A DNA stretch of 64,000 nt from Psychrobacter submarinus (lineage in GTDB: Bacteria > Pseudomonadota > Gammaproteobacteria > Pseudomonadales > Moraxellaceae), in assembly GCF_904846685.1 (NCBI RefSeq), contig NZ_CAJHBQ010000002.1:62001-126000 (forward strand), written 5' to 3'. Of the stretch, positions 3,467 through 61,256 are shown piece after piece (positions within the stretch are counted from its first letter, which is position 1; every line of letters starts with the position of its first letter). The notes below the pieces were generated by a model, which was not told the DNA's origin, made no database searches, and saw only the letters and a list, made by a program, of their open reading frames with translations. The position numbers were made by a program, and so were the translations under genes.

Positions 3467-3731
3467 GGGCGTGTTGAACATTCAAATATTAGGACTGCTG
3501 ATAGATAAAATCGCACCAAACTAGGCGTAAACCGACGATAATGTCGAGGCCTTAGCTAGGTTTACAACACCGTTTGGGGTGATTTTAGCATCAGCCCTTT
3601 GGGGCGGGGCTCTTTTTTGCCAATACATGGCGAAATTGTCTATCCTAGAATGACTAGGCTTCGAAAATTTCACTGCGTATTGCCTGAAAAATAGCCGCCG
3701 CCAGTGCCACATTTGAATGTTCAACACGCCC
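3467..3731 (+). mobile_element. TA-flanked palindromic MITE, copy 1 (divergent, 265 bp)
   Basis: Terminal inverted repeats GGGCGTGTTGAACATTC and its complement, flanked by TA on both sides. Two internal stem lobes are present: one closed by GCTGAT... / ...GCATCAGC, the other by GGGGCGGGGCT... / ...AGCCGCCGCC. The sequence differs from the other seven copies over most of both lobes, but the arms still pair. It ends 27 bases before the aldehyde dehydrogenase ATG. A 68-residue open frame inside it on the minus strand is a by-product of the palindrome. Confidence 0.9.
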
Positions 3732-7719: not shown

Positions 7720-8022
7720 GGGCGTGTTGAACATTCACAAATGCGCACTGCTGATCGCTACTAGTTAATCAAAGCTGTGTTCTAGTCGTCGTTAAAATTG
7801 CAGATAATGCTTATTGCATTGGCTAGCTGATTTTATTTAAACAGTCGCAACGACTAGGGCGATTTTAGCATCAGCCCTCACGACAACAACAGGGACAGGA
7901 CTATTTTTTGCCGCTTTATTGATAAAAATAGACGCTTAGAACGACTAAACTTACCATTTTTATCTGCAAATCGCCTAAAAAATAGTCTCTGTCAGTGCTA
8001 TGGTCGAATGTTCAACACGCCC
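7720..8022 (+). mobile_element. TA-flanked palindromic MITE, copy 2 (303 bp)
   Basis: Starts GGGCGTGTTGAACATTC and ends with its complement, with TA on both flanks. Long-lobe variant: the left lobe contains TCTAGTCGTCGTTAAAATTGC and ACGACTAGGGCGATTTTAGC, the right lobe GACAGGACTATTTTTTGCC and AAAAAATAGTCTCTGTC. It begins seven bases after the DUF3429 stop. Confidence 0.95.
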
Positions 8023-11161: not shown

Positions 11162-11905
11162 TTAAGCATTTTCAAGCTTAGGGCGAGCCTTATTTACGGC
11201 TTTAAGTAACGCTTCTTCAAACTCGCCTTGTTTAAATTTGACTAAGTAAGAGTGCGCGGCGCAGAAGTTACGTACGTCCCAGTCATGAGCAATTTGAGTC
11301 GCCCAGTCACAGTACTCTTTACCTGCATTCGGCGCGTCCTTCAGCGCTTTTTTGGTTGTGGGATGCAGCATCACCTCTGGCAACATTTTTTCGAGCAATT
11401 TAGAAGGAGGGCTCATAAAGGTATCATCAACGTGCAAGCTTTTACTAGCAGGATGATAGGCTAATAACGAGCCTGCATGAATCATCTCATTAGCATGGAT
11501 ATAATCGATGCCTTGGGACATAGAGAACTCAAGCTCAGGATAGCGCTTAGCGACCACATCACTCTCGACCAAGTCTTCACTCCAGTCCACCTCAGGCACT
11601 TGTTTGGCGTGGCGAGTACTGCCGTAAAAGGTAGCTTGCGGGAAATCTTGTGCCATCTGTGCGCAGTGAACCGTGTGGAATGGATGTACGTTCAATACCG
11701 CTTCGACGTCTTGACCGTTATTAGTCAATGCCATCACTTTATCGCGCACTTCACCTGTCAGCTTATAGCTGTCTAAGAAGATAAACTTGCCGGACTCTAA
11801 TTTGACAAGCGAGCACTGCGTACCGATATTGATAACGCCGCCGATGCGAAACTCGCCGCGTATGTTCCAAAACCCTGACCCTAGATCATGTATTTTTTCT
11901 GACAT
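11162..11905 (-). CDS. Metallo-beta-lactamase-fold-like hydrolase, paralogue A
   Basis: A 247-residue soluble protein. The pattern fits a metallo-beta-lactamase fold: LDSY early, NVHPFHTVHC (an HxxHxxH cluster where the family has HxHxDH), AGSLLAYHPASKSLHVDDTF (like the GS...L...GD strand), and CAAHSYLV with a late histidine. Substrate and activity are unknown. The start is the ATG at 11905, backed by AAGGAG; the frame stays open to 11992, but that extension reads through the adjacent MITE end. It is clearly paralogous to the gene at 12386-13159. Confidence 0.75.
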   Translation of the reverse strand: MSEKIHDLGSGFWNIRGEFRIGGVINIGTQCSLVKLESGKFIFLDSYKLTGEVRDKVMALTNNGQDVEAVLNVHPFHTVHCAQMAQDFPQATFYGSTRHAKQVPEVDWSEDLVESDVVAKRYPELEFSMSQGIDYIHANEMIHAGSLLAYHPASKSLHVDDTFMSPPSKLLEKMLPEVMLHPTTKKALKDAPNAGKEYCDWATQIAHDWDVRNFCAAHSYLVKFKQGEFEEALLKAVNKARPKLENA

Positions 11906-11928
11906 GGTTATTCTCCTTAATGATGTTA

Positions 11929-12204
11929 AGGCGTGTTGAACATTCGCAAATAGGCACTGCTGATCGCTAAAATTTTTCCAGACAAGGCACAAAGCGACGA
12001 TAATGCAGATGCCTTAGCGAGATTTGTAACGCAGTATGGGGCAATTTTAGCATCAGACCTCACGACAACAACAGGGACAGGACTCTTTTTTGCCGCTTCA
12101 TCGTTAAAAATAAGCGCTTAGAATGACTAAACTTATTATTTTTAACATCGAATCGCCTAAAAAATAGTCGCTGTCAGTGCCATGGTCGAATGTTCAACAC
12201 GCCC
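11929..12204 (+). mobile_element. TA-flanked palindromic MITE, copy 3 (276 bp)
   Basis: Same terminal repeats, with the first base changed (AGGCGTG instead of GGGCGTG). The left lobe is the short variant (CTGATCGCTAAAATTTTTCC ... GGGGCAATTTTAGCATCAG). In the right lobe the stem reads GTTAAAAATAA / TTATTTTTAAC, where the left arm of copy 2 has GATAAAAAT paired with ATTTTTATC. It lies between the two metallo-beta-lactamase-like paralogues and ends 23 bases upstream of paralogue A. Confidence 0.92.
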
Positions 12205-12385: not shown

Positions 12386-13159
12386 TTAAGTCTGGCTAGA
12401 GGCCGCTTCTAAATCAGCGCGCGCGTTATCAATTCTCGATAGCAATGCAGCTTCAAACTCACCTTCTGCAAAGACGACTAGACCAGAATGGGCCCCGCAA
12501 AAGTTACGCACCTCTCGCCACTCGTGAGCAAGCTTTGTCGCCCAGTCGCAGTACGCTTTGCCAGCGTCAGGCTCATCTTTTAATGCTTTAAGTGTGGTCG
12601 CATGTAGGTTGATACCGGCTTGCACATCATTAAACTTCTTTGATGGCGGTATCTCAAAGGTATCGTCGACATAGATGCTTTGACTAGCAGGGTGATAAAC
12701 CAATAGTGAGCCTGAATGTACGGAGTCGTCTGGGGCGATGTAATAGATACCTTTTGGTTGTGAAAACTGTAGCTCAGGGTAGCGCTTAGCGACAGCGTCG
12801 CTTTCTACGTAATCCTTGCTCCAGTTGACCTCGGGTACCTGCTCATGATGGCGAGCGCTACCATAAAAAGTAGCGTGCGGAAAATCCTTGGCAACGCGCG
12901 CACAGTGTACGGTGTGAAAAGGATGTACATTGAGCACGGCTTCAATATCTTTACCATTATTGGTCAGCGCCAGCACTTGCTCGCGCACCTCACCAGTTAA
13001 AGTATAGCTATCTAGCAAAATAAACTTCCCTGATGCTAGCTTAACGAGCGCTGATTGATTACCGATATCGACCATACCATTTCTGACAAAAGAGCCTCTA
13101 ATGTTCCAAAACCCAGCGCCTAGGTCATGTATCTGATCTTTTTTAAATTCTTCTGACAT
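12386..13159 (-). CDS. Metallo-beta-lactamase-fold-like hydrolase, paralogue B
   Basis: A 257-residue paralogue of the gene at 11162-11905, matching along its whole length: IHDLGAGFWNIRG, LDSYTLTGEVREQVLALTNN, NVHPFHTVHC, the GSLLVYHPASQSIYVDDTF strand and FCGAHSGLV. The shared HxxHxxH cluster and the late GAH histidine support a metal site in both. The copies differ mostly in the central and C-terminal surface. The ATG at 13159 has GAGG upstream. Tandem duplication followed by MITE insertion explains the present arrangement. Function is not assigned. Confidence 0.75.
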   Translation of the reverse strand: MSEEFKKDQIHDLGAGFWNIRGSFVRNGMVDIGNQSALVKLASGKFILLDSYTLTGEVREQVLALTNNGKDIEAVLNVHPFHTVHCARVAKDFPHATFYGSARHHEQVPEVNWSKDYVESDAVAKRYPELQFSQPKGIYYIAPDDSVHSGSLLVYHPASQSIYVDDTFEIPPSKKFNDVQAGINLHATTLKALKDEPDAGKAYCDWATKLAHEWREVRNFCGAHSGLVVFAEGEFEAALLSRIDNARADLEAASSQT

Positions 13160-32060: not shown

Positions 32061-32335
32061 GGGCGTGTTGAACATTCACAAATGCGCACTGCTGATCGCT
32101 AAAATAGTTCTAGTCTAAGTGAAAATTGCAGGTAATGCAGATGCCTTAGCTAAATTTTTACAACGACTAGGGCGATTTTAGCATCAGCCCTAACTACAAC
32201 AACAGGGACAGGACTATTTTTTACCGCTTTATTGATAAAAATAGACGTTTAGAACGACTAAACTTACCATTTTTATCTGCAAATCGCCTAAAAAATAGTC
32301 TCTGTCAGTGCCATGGTCGAATGTTCAACACGCCC
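32061..32335 (+). mobile_element. TA-flanked palindromic MITE, copy 4 (275 bp)
   Basis: Perfect 17-base terminal repeats with TA flanks. The left lobe is the short variant (GCTGATCGCTAAAAT ... ATTTTAGCATCAGC; arms nearly perfect); the right lobe matches copy 2. It ends 34 bases before the lpxB ATG. A TTGTTA / TATATT promoter-like pair at 32030-32059 stops exactly at its left edge, which would place the element in the lpxB leader. Confidence 0.95.
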
Positions 32336-37652: not shown

Positions 37653-37957
37653 GGGCGTGTTGAACATTCACAAATGCGCACTGCTGATCGCTACTAGTTT
37701 ATCAAAGCTGTGTTCTAGTCGTCGTTAAAATTGCAGGTAATGCTTATTGCATTGGCTAGCTGATTTTATTTAAACAGTCACAACGACTAGGGCGATTTTA
37801 GCATCAGCCCTTACTACAACAATAGGGACAGGACTATTTTTTGCCGCTTTATTGATAAAAATAGACGCTTAGAACGACTAAACTTACCATTTTTATCTGC
37901 AAATCGCCTAAAAAATAGTCTCTGTCAGTGCCATGGTCGAATGTTCAACACGCCCTA
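37653..37957 (+). mobile_element. TA-flanked palindromic MITE, copy 5 (305 bp)
   Basis: Perfect terminal repeats and TA flanks; long-lobe variant nearly identical to copy 2. It lies between the convergent CAP-domain and DUF924 genes, 46 bases after one stop and 32 after the other, so it could form a 3' hairpin for both transcripts. Confidence 0.95.
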
Positions 37958-48118: not shown

Positions 48119-48421
48119 GGGCGTGTTGAACATTCGACCATGGCACTGACAGAGACTATTTTTTAGGCGATTTGCAGATAAAAATTATAAGTTTAGTCGT
48201 TCTAAGCGTCTATTTTTAACGATGAAGCGGCAAAAAATAGTCCTGTCCCTGTTGTTGTCGTGAGGGCTGATGCTAAAATCGCCCTAGTCGTTGCGACTGT
48301 TTAAATAAAATCAGCTAGCCAATGCAATAAGCATTACCTGCAATTTTAACGACGACTAGAACACAGCTTTGATTAACTAGTAGCTATCAGCAGTGCGCAC
48401 TTGTGAATGTTCAACACGCCC
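48119..48421 (-). mobile_element. TA-flanked palindromic MITE, copy 6 (303 bp)
   Basis: Opposite orientation to copies 1-5 and 8 (the right lobe comes first). Perfect terminal repeats and TA flanks. It ends 32 bases before the miaA ATG and starts 35 bases after mutL, splitting the usual mutL-miaA contact. Confidence 0.95.
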
Positions 48422-51645: not shown

Positions 51646-51948
51646 GGGCGTGTTGAACCTTCGACCATGGCACTGACAGCGACTATTTTTTAGGCGATTT
51701 GCAGATAAAAATGGTAAGTTTAGTCATTCTAAGCGTCTATTTTTAACGATGAAGCGGCAAAAAAGAGTCCTGTCCCTGTTGTTGTCGTGAGGGCTGATGC
51801 TAAAATCGCCCTAGTCGTTGTGACTGTTTAAATAAAATCAGCTAGCCAATGCAATAAGCATTACCTGCAATTTTAACGACGACTAGAACACAGCTTTGAT
51901 AAACTAGTAGCGATCAGCAGTGCGCATTTGTGAATGTTCAACACGCCC
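51646..51948 (-). mobile_element. TA-flanked palindromic MITE, copy 7 (303 bp)
   Basis: Same orientation as copy 6. One base differs in the left terminal repeat (GAACC for GAACA). TA flanks. It lies inside the kdsD-kdsC gap, starting 38 bases after kdsD and ending 19 bases before the kdsC ATG. Confidence 0.95.
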
Positions 51949-60953: not shown

Positions 60954-61256
60954 GGGCGTGTTGAACATTCACAAATGCGCACTGCTGATCGCTACTAGTT
61001 AATCAAAGCTGTGTTCTAGTCGTCGTTAAAATTGCAGGTAACGCTTATTGCATTGGCTAGCTGATTTTATTTAAACAGTCGCAACGACTAGGGCGATTTT
61101 AGCATCAGCCCTCACGACAACAACAGGGACAGGACTATTTTTTGCCGCTTCATCGTTAAAAATAGACGCTTAGAATGACTAAACTTACCATTTTTATCTG
61201 CAAATCGCCTAAAAAATAGTCTCTGTCAGTGCCATGGTCGAATGTTCAACACGCCC
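60954..61256 (+). mobile_element. TA-flanked palindromic MITE, copy 8 (303 bp)
   Basis: Perfect terminal repeats and TA flanks; long-lobe variant like copies 2 and 5. The right lobe carries ATCGTTAAAAAT on one arm (as in copy 3) and ATTTTTATC on the other (as in copy 2). It lies between convergent genes. Confidence 0.95.

Follow-up and report, generated by a model that had tools for sequence, protein, structure and literature searches.

Coupled arm changes in both lobes of a two-lobed Psychrobacter MITE, and a possible role for its fold in propagation

The 64-kb window (the whole stretch of DNA analysed) carries eight copies of a Psychrobacter MITE, and in all eight both ends lie within 4 mismatches of a 17-bp repeat. 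Copy 1 is 265 bp long, occupies positions 3467–3731 on the forward strand and ends 27 bp ahead of the start of an aldehyde dehydrogenase gene; it has 17-bp TIRs, TA target duplications and two palindromic lobes. A TIR scan placed GGGCGTGTTGAACATTC at 3467–3483 and its inverted copy at 3715–3731. By fold and sequence, the left terminal stem (3467–3487, forward strand) consists of the TIR plus 4 bp and pairs with the right terminal stem (3711–3731, reverse strand), the latter delimited by sequence, TIR scan and extraction, with TA lying just outside both ends of the element. Between the stems the fold places a left lobe, which is an imperfect palindrome (3497–3594, forward strand, helices 3–11), and a right lobe (3601–3702, forward strand, helices 13–17) with closing arms GGGGCGGGGCT/AGCCGCCGCC and the tip CTAG-AATGA-CTAG. 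The limits of both lobes are approximate, and each lobe carries compensatory changes in both clades of the family.

Copy 1 belongs to one of two subfamilies, here called A, and the other seven copies, which like copy 1 were located by TIR scan and extraction, belong to the other, B. Five are of a 303-bp type: copies 2 (7720–8022), 5 (37653–37955) and 8 (60954–61256) on the forward strand, and copies 6 (48119–48421) and 7 (51646–51948) on the reverse strand. Copy 3 (11929–12204, 276-bp type) and copy 4 (32061–32335, 275-bp type) are both on the forward strand. Two genes for similar proteins (11162–11992 and 12386–13159; MSEKIHDLGSGFWNIRG.. and MSEEFKKDQIHDLGAGFWNIRG..) neighbour each other, with copy 3 between them.

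In the host genome (3.01 Mb in 6 contigs) the TIR has 87 forward and 88 reverse matches with at most 3 mismatches, and the reversed control has none. Our copy set comprised 272 MITEs, 223 of them distinct, after 12 short, long or rearranged TIR pairs had been set aside. TA flanks both ends in 198 of the 223 distinct copies, and the length of full copies is 255–336 bp, mostly 264–303 bp. Dropping L033_1786 and L036_536 left 221 distinct copies, of which a sequence rule assigned 82 to the subfamily of copy 1 and the remaining 139 to the other. At positions 4–5 of the TIR (columns 4/375 and 5/374) the variants GGGCGTG and GGGTCTG occur, and the two ends of a MITE nearly always agree. Several reduced forms were also seen. 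One 26-bp palindrome (L042:588–613; about 1204287 on contig C1 of the host genome, G000) consists of two fused TIRs with the whole interior deleted, and resembles the outcome of a deletion at the hairpin base; another 26-bp palindrome, of the GGGTCT type (L303:2957–2982), is without an adjoining TA. A 62-bp mini-element (L150:899–960) has TIRs and a sub-terminal stem without lobes, and a 43-bp part of it matches three Psychrobacter plasmid records and one plasmid record of Acinetobacter variabilis.

The fold of copy 1 is a TIR stem bearing the left and right lobes, and it is very stable both as DNA (−67.1 kcal/mol, z −9.8) and as RNA (−110.7 kcal/mol, z −8.5), none of 200 shuffles being as good in either case. 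RNAalifold lost the left lobe on the mixed alignment, so single-copy folds were used instead. A preliminary description of this DNA had proposed that the closing arms of the right lobe changed together, and this is what we find: GGGGCGGGGCT (3601–3611) and AGCCGCCGCC (3693–3702) stand where other copies have GACAGGACT and AGTCTCTGTC. Judged by eye, both arm pairs follow the same plan of 5 bp, a 1-nt bulge and 4 bp, and they differ by three double changes from A:T to G:C. The difference between copies 2 and 3, GATAAAAAT/ATTTTTATC against GTTAAAAATAA/TTATTTTTAAC, is likewise present as described. In the left lobe, GTAAACC (3527–3533) pairs perfectly with GGTTTAC (3559–3565), and CACCAAAC (3514–3521) also pairs with GTTTGGGGTG (3572–3581), but only with a 2-nt bulge. 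The statement that this left-lobe sequence is not shared with other copies holds inside the window and fails beyond it, where the 82 distinct copies of subfamily A are found. A coding left lobe was rejected on a stop noted by eye in the copy-1 type.

The MITE is gene-free, and its interior has no detectable similarity to the IS that matches its ends. This IS, 858–859 bp long, TA-flanked and found in sister species, shares 16-bp ends with the MITE; these are identical in L167, and one end of L055 has two mismatches. The L055 IS has one GGGCGTG-type and one GGGTCTG-type end, unlike nearly all of the MITEs. The 250-aa transposase of the IS matches NF033580 (IS5 family) at 257.7 bits, against a cut-off of 110, and also PF01609 and PF13340. 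An origin of the MITE by internal deletion of the IS (type I) was rejected, as local alignment scores of 4 MITE copies against 4 IS copies were at the level of shuffled sequence. In our reading the MITE is most likely moved in trans by the transposase of this IS. Its ends, together with the TA duplication, point to an IS5-type enzyme, not to a RAYT. A search of the host genome with the IS transposase returned no intact close partner: there is one truncated copy at 82% (aa 54–250 and 1–18), seven copies of a 54% relative whose ends differ, and some weaker relatives. The likely driver is therefore absent or broken in this genome. A 721-bp IS derivative (L062:1287–2007 and L178:1449–2169) has an additional internal TIR-like start (GGTTAGGGCGTGC) and is possibly the product of a nested insertion and a deletion.

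The element is spread through Psychrobacter genomes. Its motif occurs in at least 106 stretches across named genomes, and 80 of the 80 titles among the matches listed are Psychrobacter. A match was present in 89 of 105 genomes of the genus. In a search of 199 genomes of the family, with 3 candidates scored per genome, 55 matched, 54 of them from the same genus and one, from another genus, weakly (E = 8e-4). Copy 1 had no match among phages or plasmids, and a subfamily-B query against plasmids returned 43-bp matches only, in 4 plasmid records. Among the open-access search results viewed, we found no description of this element. The preliminary description had spoken of a dead MITE, and here the copies say otherwise: copy 1 has four other copies at 99–100% identity in its own genome, plus one at 100% in the genome G003, and copy 6 is matched at 95–98% identity by 27 more places in its own genome, so the MITE moved recently. 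The best match to copy 6 in 12 other genomes reaches 79% over the length of the element, and the 303-bp type in the host genome is a burst of this lineage. At all 11 loci examined in other genomes the two flanking genes of copy 6 lie next to each other with no element in between, an insertion polymorphism at which the flanking proteins are 39–46% and 66–70% identical and the junction is not base-exact; unpaired single TIR-like matches (at most 4 mismatches) lie inside the left-gene stretch of two of these loci, L379 and L388. For copy 1 the search for empty sites returned only diverged flanks.

Coupled change in both lobes, the central proposal of the preliminary description, was confirmed in both subfamilies and in many copies, above the nulls used. 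When the fold derived from copy 1 alone was imposed on the other subfamily (139 copies), 82.3% of the pairs were Watson-Crick, compared with 22–31% when the partners were slid; among cells changed on both sides 1994 of 2458 were Watson-Crick, and 43 of the 90 pairs had at least one such cell. The reverse test, with the fold of the other subfamily imposed on that of copy 1, gave 82.2% Watson-Crick and 37 of 101 pairs.

Shuffling gave the same picture for a set of 59 copies, made up of 55 of 67 representatives and 4 window copies (left out were L002, L024, L146, L223, L240, L248, L265, L287, L307, L308, L309 and L330). Standard pairs made up 90.2% under the fold of copy 1, against 82.1% in shuffled alignments and 32–43% with slid partners. 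Changes on both sides were seen at 44 of 90 pairs (30.8 when shuffled) and in 492 cells (174.5 when shuffled), and the covariation score was 0.270, compared with 0.132 for shuffled and at most 0.083 for slid alignments. None of 500 shuffles reached the observed pairing, number of both-side pairs, number of both-side cells or score, subject to two limits: relatedness is not taken into account in the shuffles, and the unslid version is favoured when the fold comes from one of the included sequences. The number of further pair types was less striking (101 versus 95.1, reached by 14 of the 500 shuffles).

Nulls that keep the tree were exceeded as well. With substitutions also kept, 52 copies (55 less L033_1786, L036_536 and L152_1503) had 85.4% Watson-Crick pairs, compared with 59.6% under the null (55–66% in 300 runs), and the minimum free energy of 67 copies averaged −102.0 (sd 9.6), compared with −61.6 (sd 6.9) for neutral evolution on the same tree. 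Across 91 interior pairs we counted 27 changes from one Watson-Crick pair to another on the same terminal branch and 43 on the same internal branch, whereas the tree-preserving null gave 3.4 and 2.6, with a maximum of 7 each in 100 runs.

Shared ancestry could in principle account for the coupling if two old subfamilies had simply been inherited whole, with nothing ongoing. The deep split between the two clades dominates the alignment and weakens a strict covariation test, which is to the advantage of this explanation. Accordingly, our own R-scape-like implementation (G-test, APC, simulated null), the kind of test that the preliminary description had called for, was weak when no structure was given, with 1 pair significant for 52 copies and 2 for 67 copies, where one lay outside the fold. 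With the fold given, it supported 9 of 98 pairs (52 copies) and 12 of 109 pairs (67 copies), with 8 of the latter 12 in the lobes and 2 each in the TIR and the linker, and 12 of the top 20 pairs of the structure-free ranking for 67 copies fall in the fold, where 0.06 were expected. Against simple inheritance, compensations recur in each clade and lobe, unless recombination between copies made them. With the two root branches omitted from the counts, the left lobe has 6.6 compensations within clade A (null 0.7) and 15.5 within clade B (null 1.6), and the right lobe 6.0 (null 0.7) and 21.8 (null 1.4). Arm changes are thus coupled beyond shared ancestry in every lobe and subfamily, and ancestry as the sole cause is extremely improbable.

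Coupling beyond ancestry can also arise without any selection for structure. If hairpins that form during replication allowed template switching to copy one arm onto the other, paired changes would be single mutations, and template switching is documented and can mimic compensatory change (PMC8794818). The short branches on which compensations fall, terminal ones included, are in keeping with arm copying (28 of 52 compensation-bearing branches have at most 8 substitutions), and either template switching or recombination between copies could produce the 27 same-branch compensations on terminal branches. Neighbouring repairs cluster mildly (195 versus 131, sd 11), for which recombination between copies is also a possible source. 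But arm copying predicts multi-pair blocks and erased loops, and compensations are nearly all of single pairs, with 63.1 single runs against 3.6 runs of two. The template-switching study itself called 94.7% of its two-step compensations isolated, a class uninformative about mechanism (PMC8794818). Nor are the loops erased: at symmetric internal loops, defined as unpaired in two reference copies, only 35 of 131 events create a pair, fewer than the 46 expected, whereas stem mismatches are repaired in 193 of 336 cases (142 expected; slid controls 0.85–1.15 of expectation). One loop pair of eight, 49/112, is an exception, with 14 of 20 repaired where 9.8 were expected. The right-tip loop is inverted in 0 of 221 copies.

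The distribution of changes over the tree, as counted by parsimony over one tree, bears on the same question. Pair breaks and unpaired substitutions stand at 185 to 201 on internal branches and at 366 to 214 on terminal ones (odds ratio 0.54, p = 3e-6), and compensations likewise lean toward internal branches (odds ratio 1.70, p = 0.05). On internal branches paired columns took 2.38 substitutions and unpaired columns 3.88 (p = 0.004), a slowing that unbiased copying would not predict; on terminal branches the values were 3.31 and 4.25, a difference that is not significant (p = 0.22). The rarity of pair breaks on internal relative to terminal branches and the open internal loops together argue against arm copying alone, which we regard as an unlikely account of the pairing. 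Selection on spreading copies predicts that internal branches carry fewer breaks. Against it, the raw number of terminal-branch breaks exceeds the null (366 versus 325, null maximum 362), as do the lobe breaks in clade A (100 and 88 versus 80 and 79); these counts are un-normalised, and the null has fewer intact pairs. Within-clade repairs show no clear excess over the null. Repair that lags behind the break could imitate the contrast between internal and terminal branches; delayed repair and recombination between copies could both contribute, and mosaics of copies are observed.

The preliminary description had left it open whether the structure serves DNA transposition or acts as RNA. A small-RNA gene, or a cis-regulator, present in dispersed copies and read from a single strand would fit the very stable RNA fold of copy 1, its position just ahead of the aldehyde dehydrogenase gene and the slight excess of GT over AC among all terminal-branch changes read on the reference strand (138 versus 110). 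That excess, however, runs in the same direction as the transitions at unpaired columns (117.8 versus 103.4), and GT and AC mismatch cells are otherwise near equal: 212 and 227 in the 52 copies, and 422 and 486 or 329 and 383 in the cross-subfamily tests. A lack of strand preference in mismatches is also what arm copying would allow. Relative to tandem genes no orientation is preferred (23 of 57, p = 0.18), and the 95 insertion sites, of which 57 are tandem, 24 divergent and 14 convergent, are spread over site types much as background gaps are (179, 72 and 65, respectively). A search of the window against Rfam 15 at gathering thresholds returned no match. With neither strand asymmetry beyond background nor orientation bias, a one-strand RNA gene is disfavoured; we rejected it as very unlikely, and of the two functions proposed DNA transposition is the one that fits best.

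RNA could still matter if it folds in either orientation. Under this explanation the element, lying on either strand of transcribed intergenic DNA, would yield a compact RNA that evades Rho termination, decay or interference, so that the host tolerates the foldable copies and these survive. Bacterial MITE transcripts have been described as long stem-loops (PMC2229807, PMC10969869), none of the 95 sites is spanned by an ORF of at least 100 aa, 57 of the 95 lie between co-directional ORFs, and insertion both ways round would likewise yield strand symmetry. However, folding energy per base does not clearly differ among tandem, divergent and convergent sites (p = 0.07, with divergent sites the most stable), and private mismatches at tandem sites, read on the transcribed strand, are evenly divided between GT and AC (54 each). 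There is thus no sign of RNA selection after insertion, and we consider selection on RNA in either orientation improbable, to about the same degree as arm copying.

The best reading of these data is that copies that fold propagate best, whether as DNA or as an RNA of one or the other orientation. The family has kept its shape through changes of sequence, which suggests that shape as such is important for spread. Pairing is kept equally for both strands and insertions occur both ways round, so what is selected is most likely a DNA fold; we infer that the pairing is maintained by selection and not by a bias of mutation, and that DNA is the level at which selection acts. The specific form of this reading, in which the two-lobed fold is selected at the DNA level via the foldability of propagating copies, we hold with middling confidence, as about evenly poised between right and wrong. 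An exposed single strand would fold on itself, the TIRs pairing into an 18–21-bp stem that carries the two linker-joined palindromic lobes. The 858–859-bp IS, which has the 16–17-bp ends and the TA target in common with the MITE, would supply the transposase that mobilises it in trans. Only copies with lobes that can still fold would leave descendants, so that breaks in pairing would be purged or compensated along propagating lineages. The DNA fold itself, whether single-stranded at replication or a cruciform, might keep both ends together for the transposase. To our knowledge, no fold-dependent step is known in IS5-type transposition. A bolder version, in which the folded single strand is itself the substrate, with a two-lobed hairpin extruded at the fork and an IS5-type DDE transposase acting on the pre-synapsed base of paired TIRs, appears to us quite unlikely. 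Were it true, a DDE-driven element would have arrived at a route that is coupled to replication and depends on structure, as is otherwise associated with tyrosine (HUH/Y1, RAYT) elements.

Bacterial MITEs are routinely depicted as hairpins, and whether selection, arm copying or descent keeps the hairpin of an IS-type MITE can rarely be separated. The hundreds of copies that this one family has in a single genus offer enough independent change to pose the question. In the Psychrobacter family both strands retain the pairing, breaks occur more often in resident copies than along lineages that spread, and loops are mostly left open. If confirmed, selection for foldability would turn the fold of a DDE-driven MITE into a fitness trait that can be measured.

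Several known systems share parts of this arrangement. The IS427 group of the IS5 family in Psychrobacter (e.g. ISPssp5, 837 bp, TA target) has in common with the partner IS the IS5-family transposase, the TA duplication and ends that begin GGGCGTGT or GGGTGTGT (PMC6514802). The ends of ISPssp5 continue differently (CATCAATTA; PMC6514802), and the IS that shares the MITE ends is another member. MITEAba12, from the same family, Moraxellaceae, resembles our element in that its identity to IS elements is restricted to the TIRs, but it is 113 bp long, with the TIR GGCTTTGTTGCACAAA and 9-bp duplications; the main text of that paper does not mention Psychrobacter (PMC6382973). RUP, Correia/NEMIS and ERIC are, like the present MITE, small, mostly intergenic elements with TIRs, terminal TA and a stable stem-loop, but they measure about 100–200 bp and form one long stem-loop, while the Psychrobacter MITE has 265–303 bp and two lobes (PMC2229807). 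The CIR repeats of Caulobacter and Brucella share two inverted-repeat arms joined by a linker and conservation across species; they are described without a stem that pairs the ends, whereas the ends of the Psychrobacter MITE do pair (PMC2229807).

Compensatory change in hairpin-forming mobile DNA is already known from Borrelia repeats (PMC2674063) and from REPINs (PMC3116915). The Borrelia repeats, intergenic and plasmid-borne, show base-pair compensatory changes, and a relation to MITEs has been considered; they differ in being stem-loops of 34–122 nt, and the available portion of the paper neither demonstrates transposability nor names a partner IS (PMC2674063). REPINs, in whose hairpins compensatory changes have been reported, are likewise miniature extragenic mobile DNA that folds as a single strand, and are REP doublets (for GI, 16-mers 71 bp apart) associated with tyrosine RAYT transposases (PMC3116915). 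Unlike REPINs, the Psychrobacter MITE has TIRs and TA duplications as in an IS5-type DDE element, and carries two lobes on a TIR stem.
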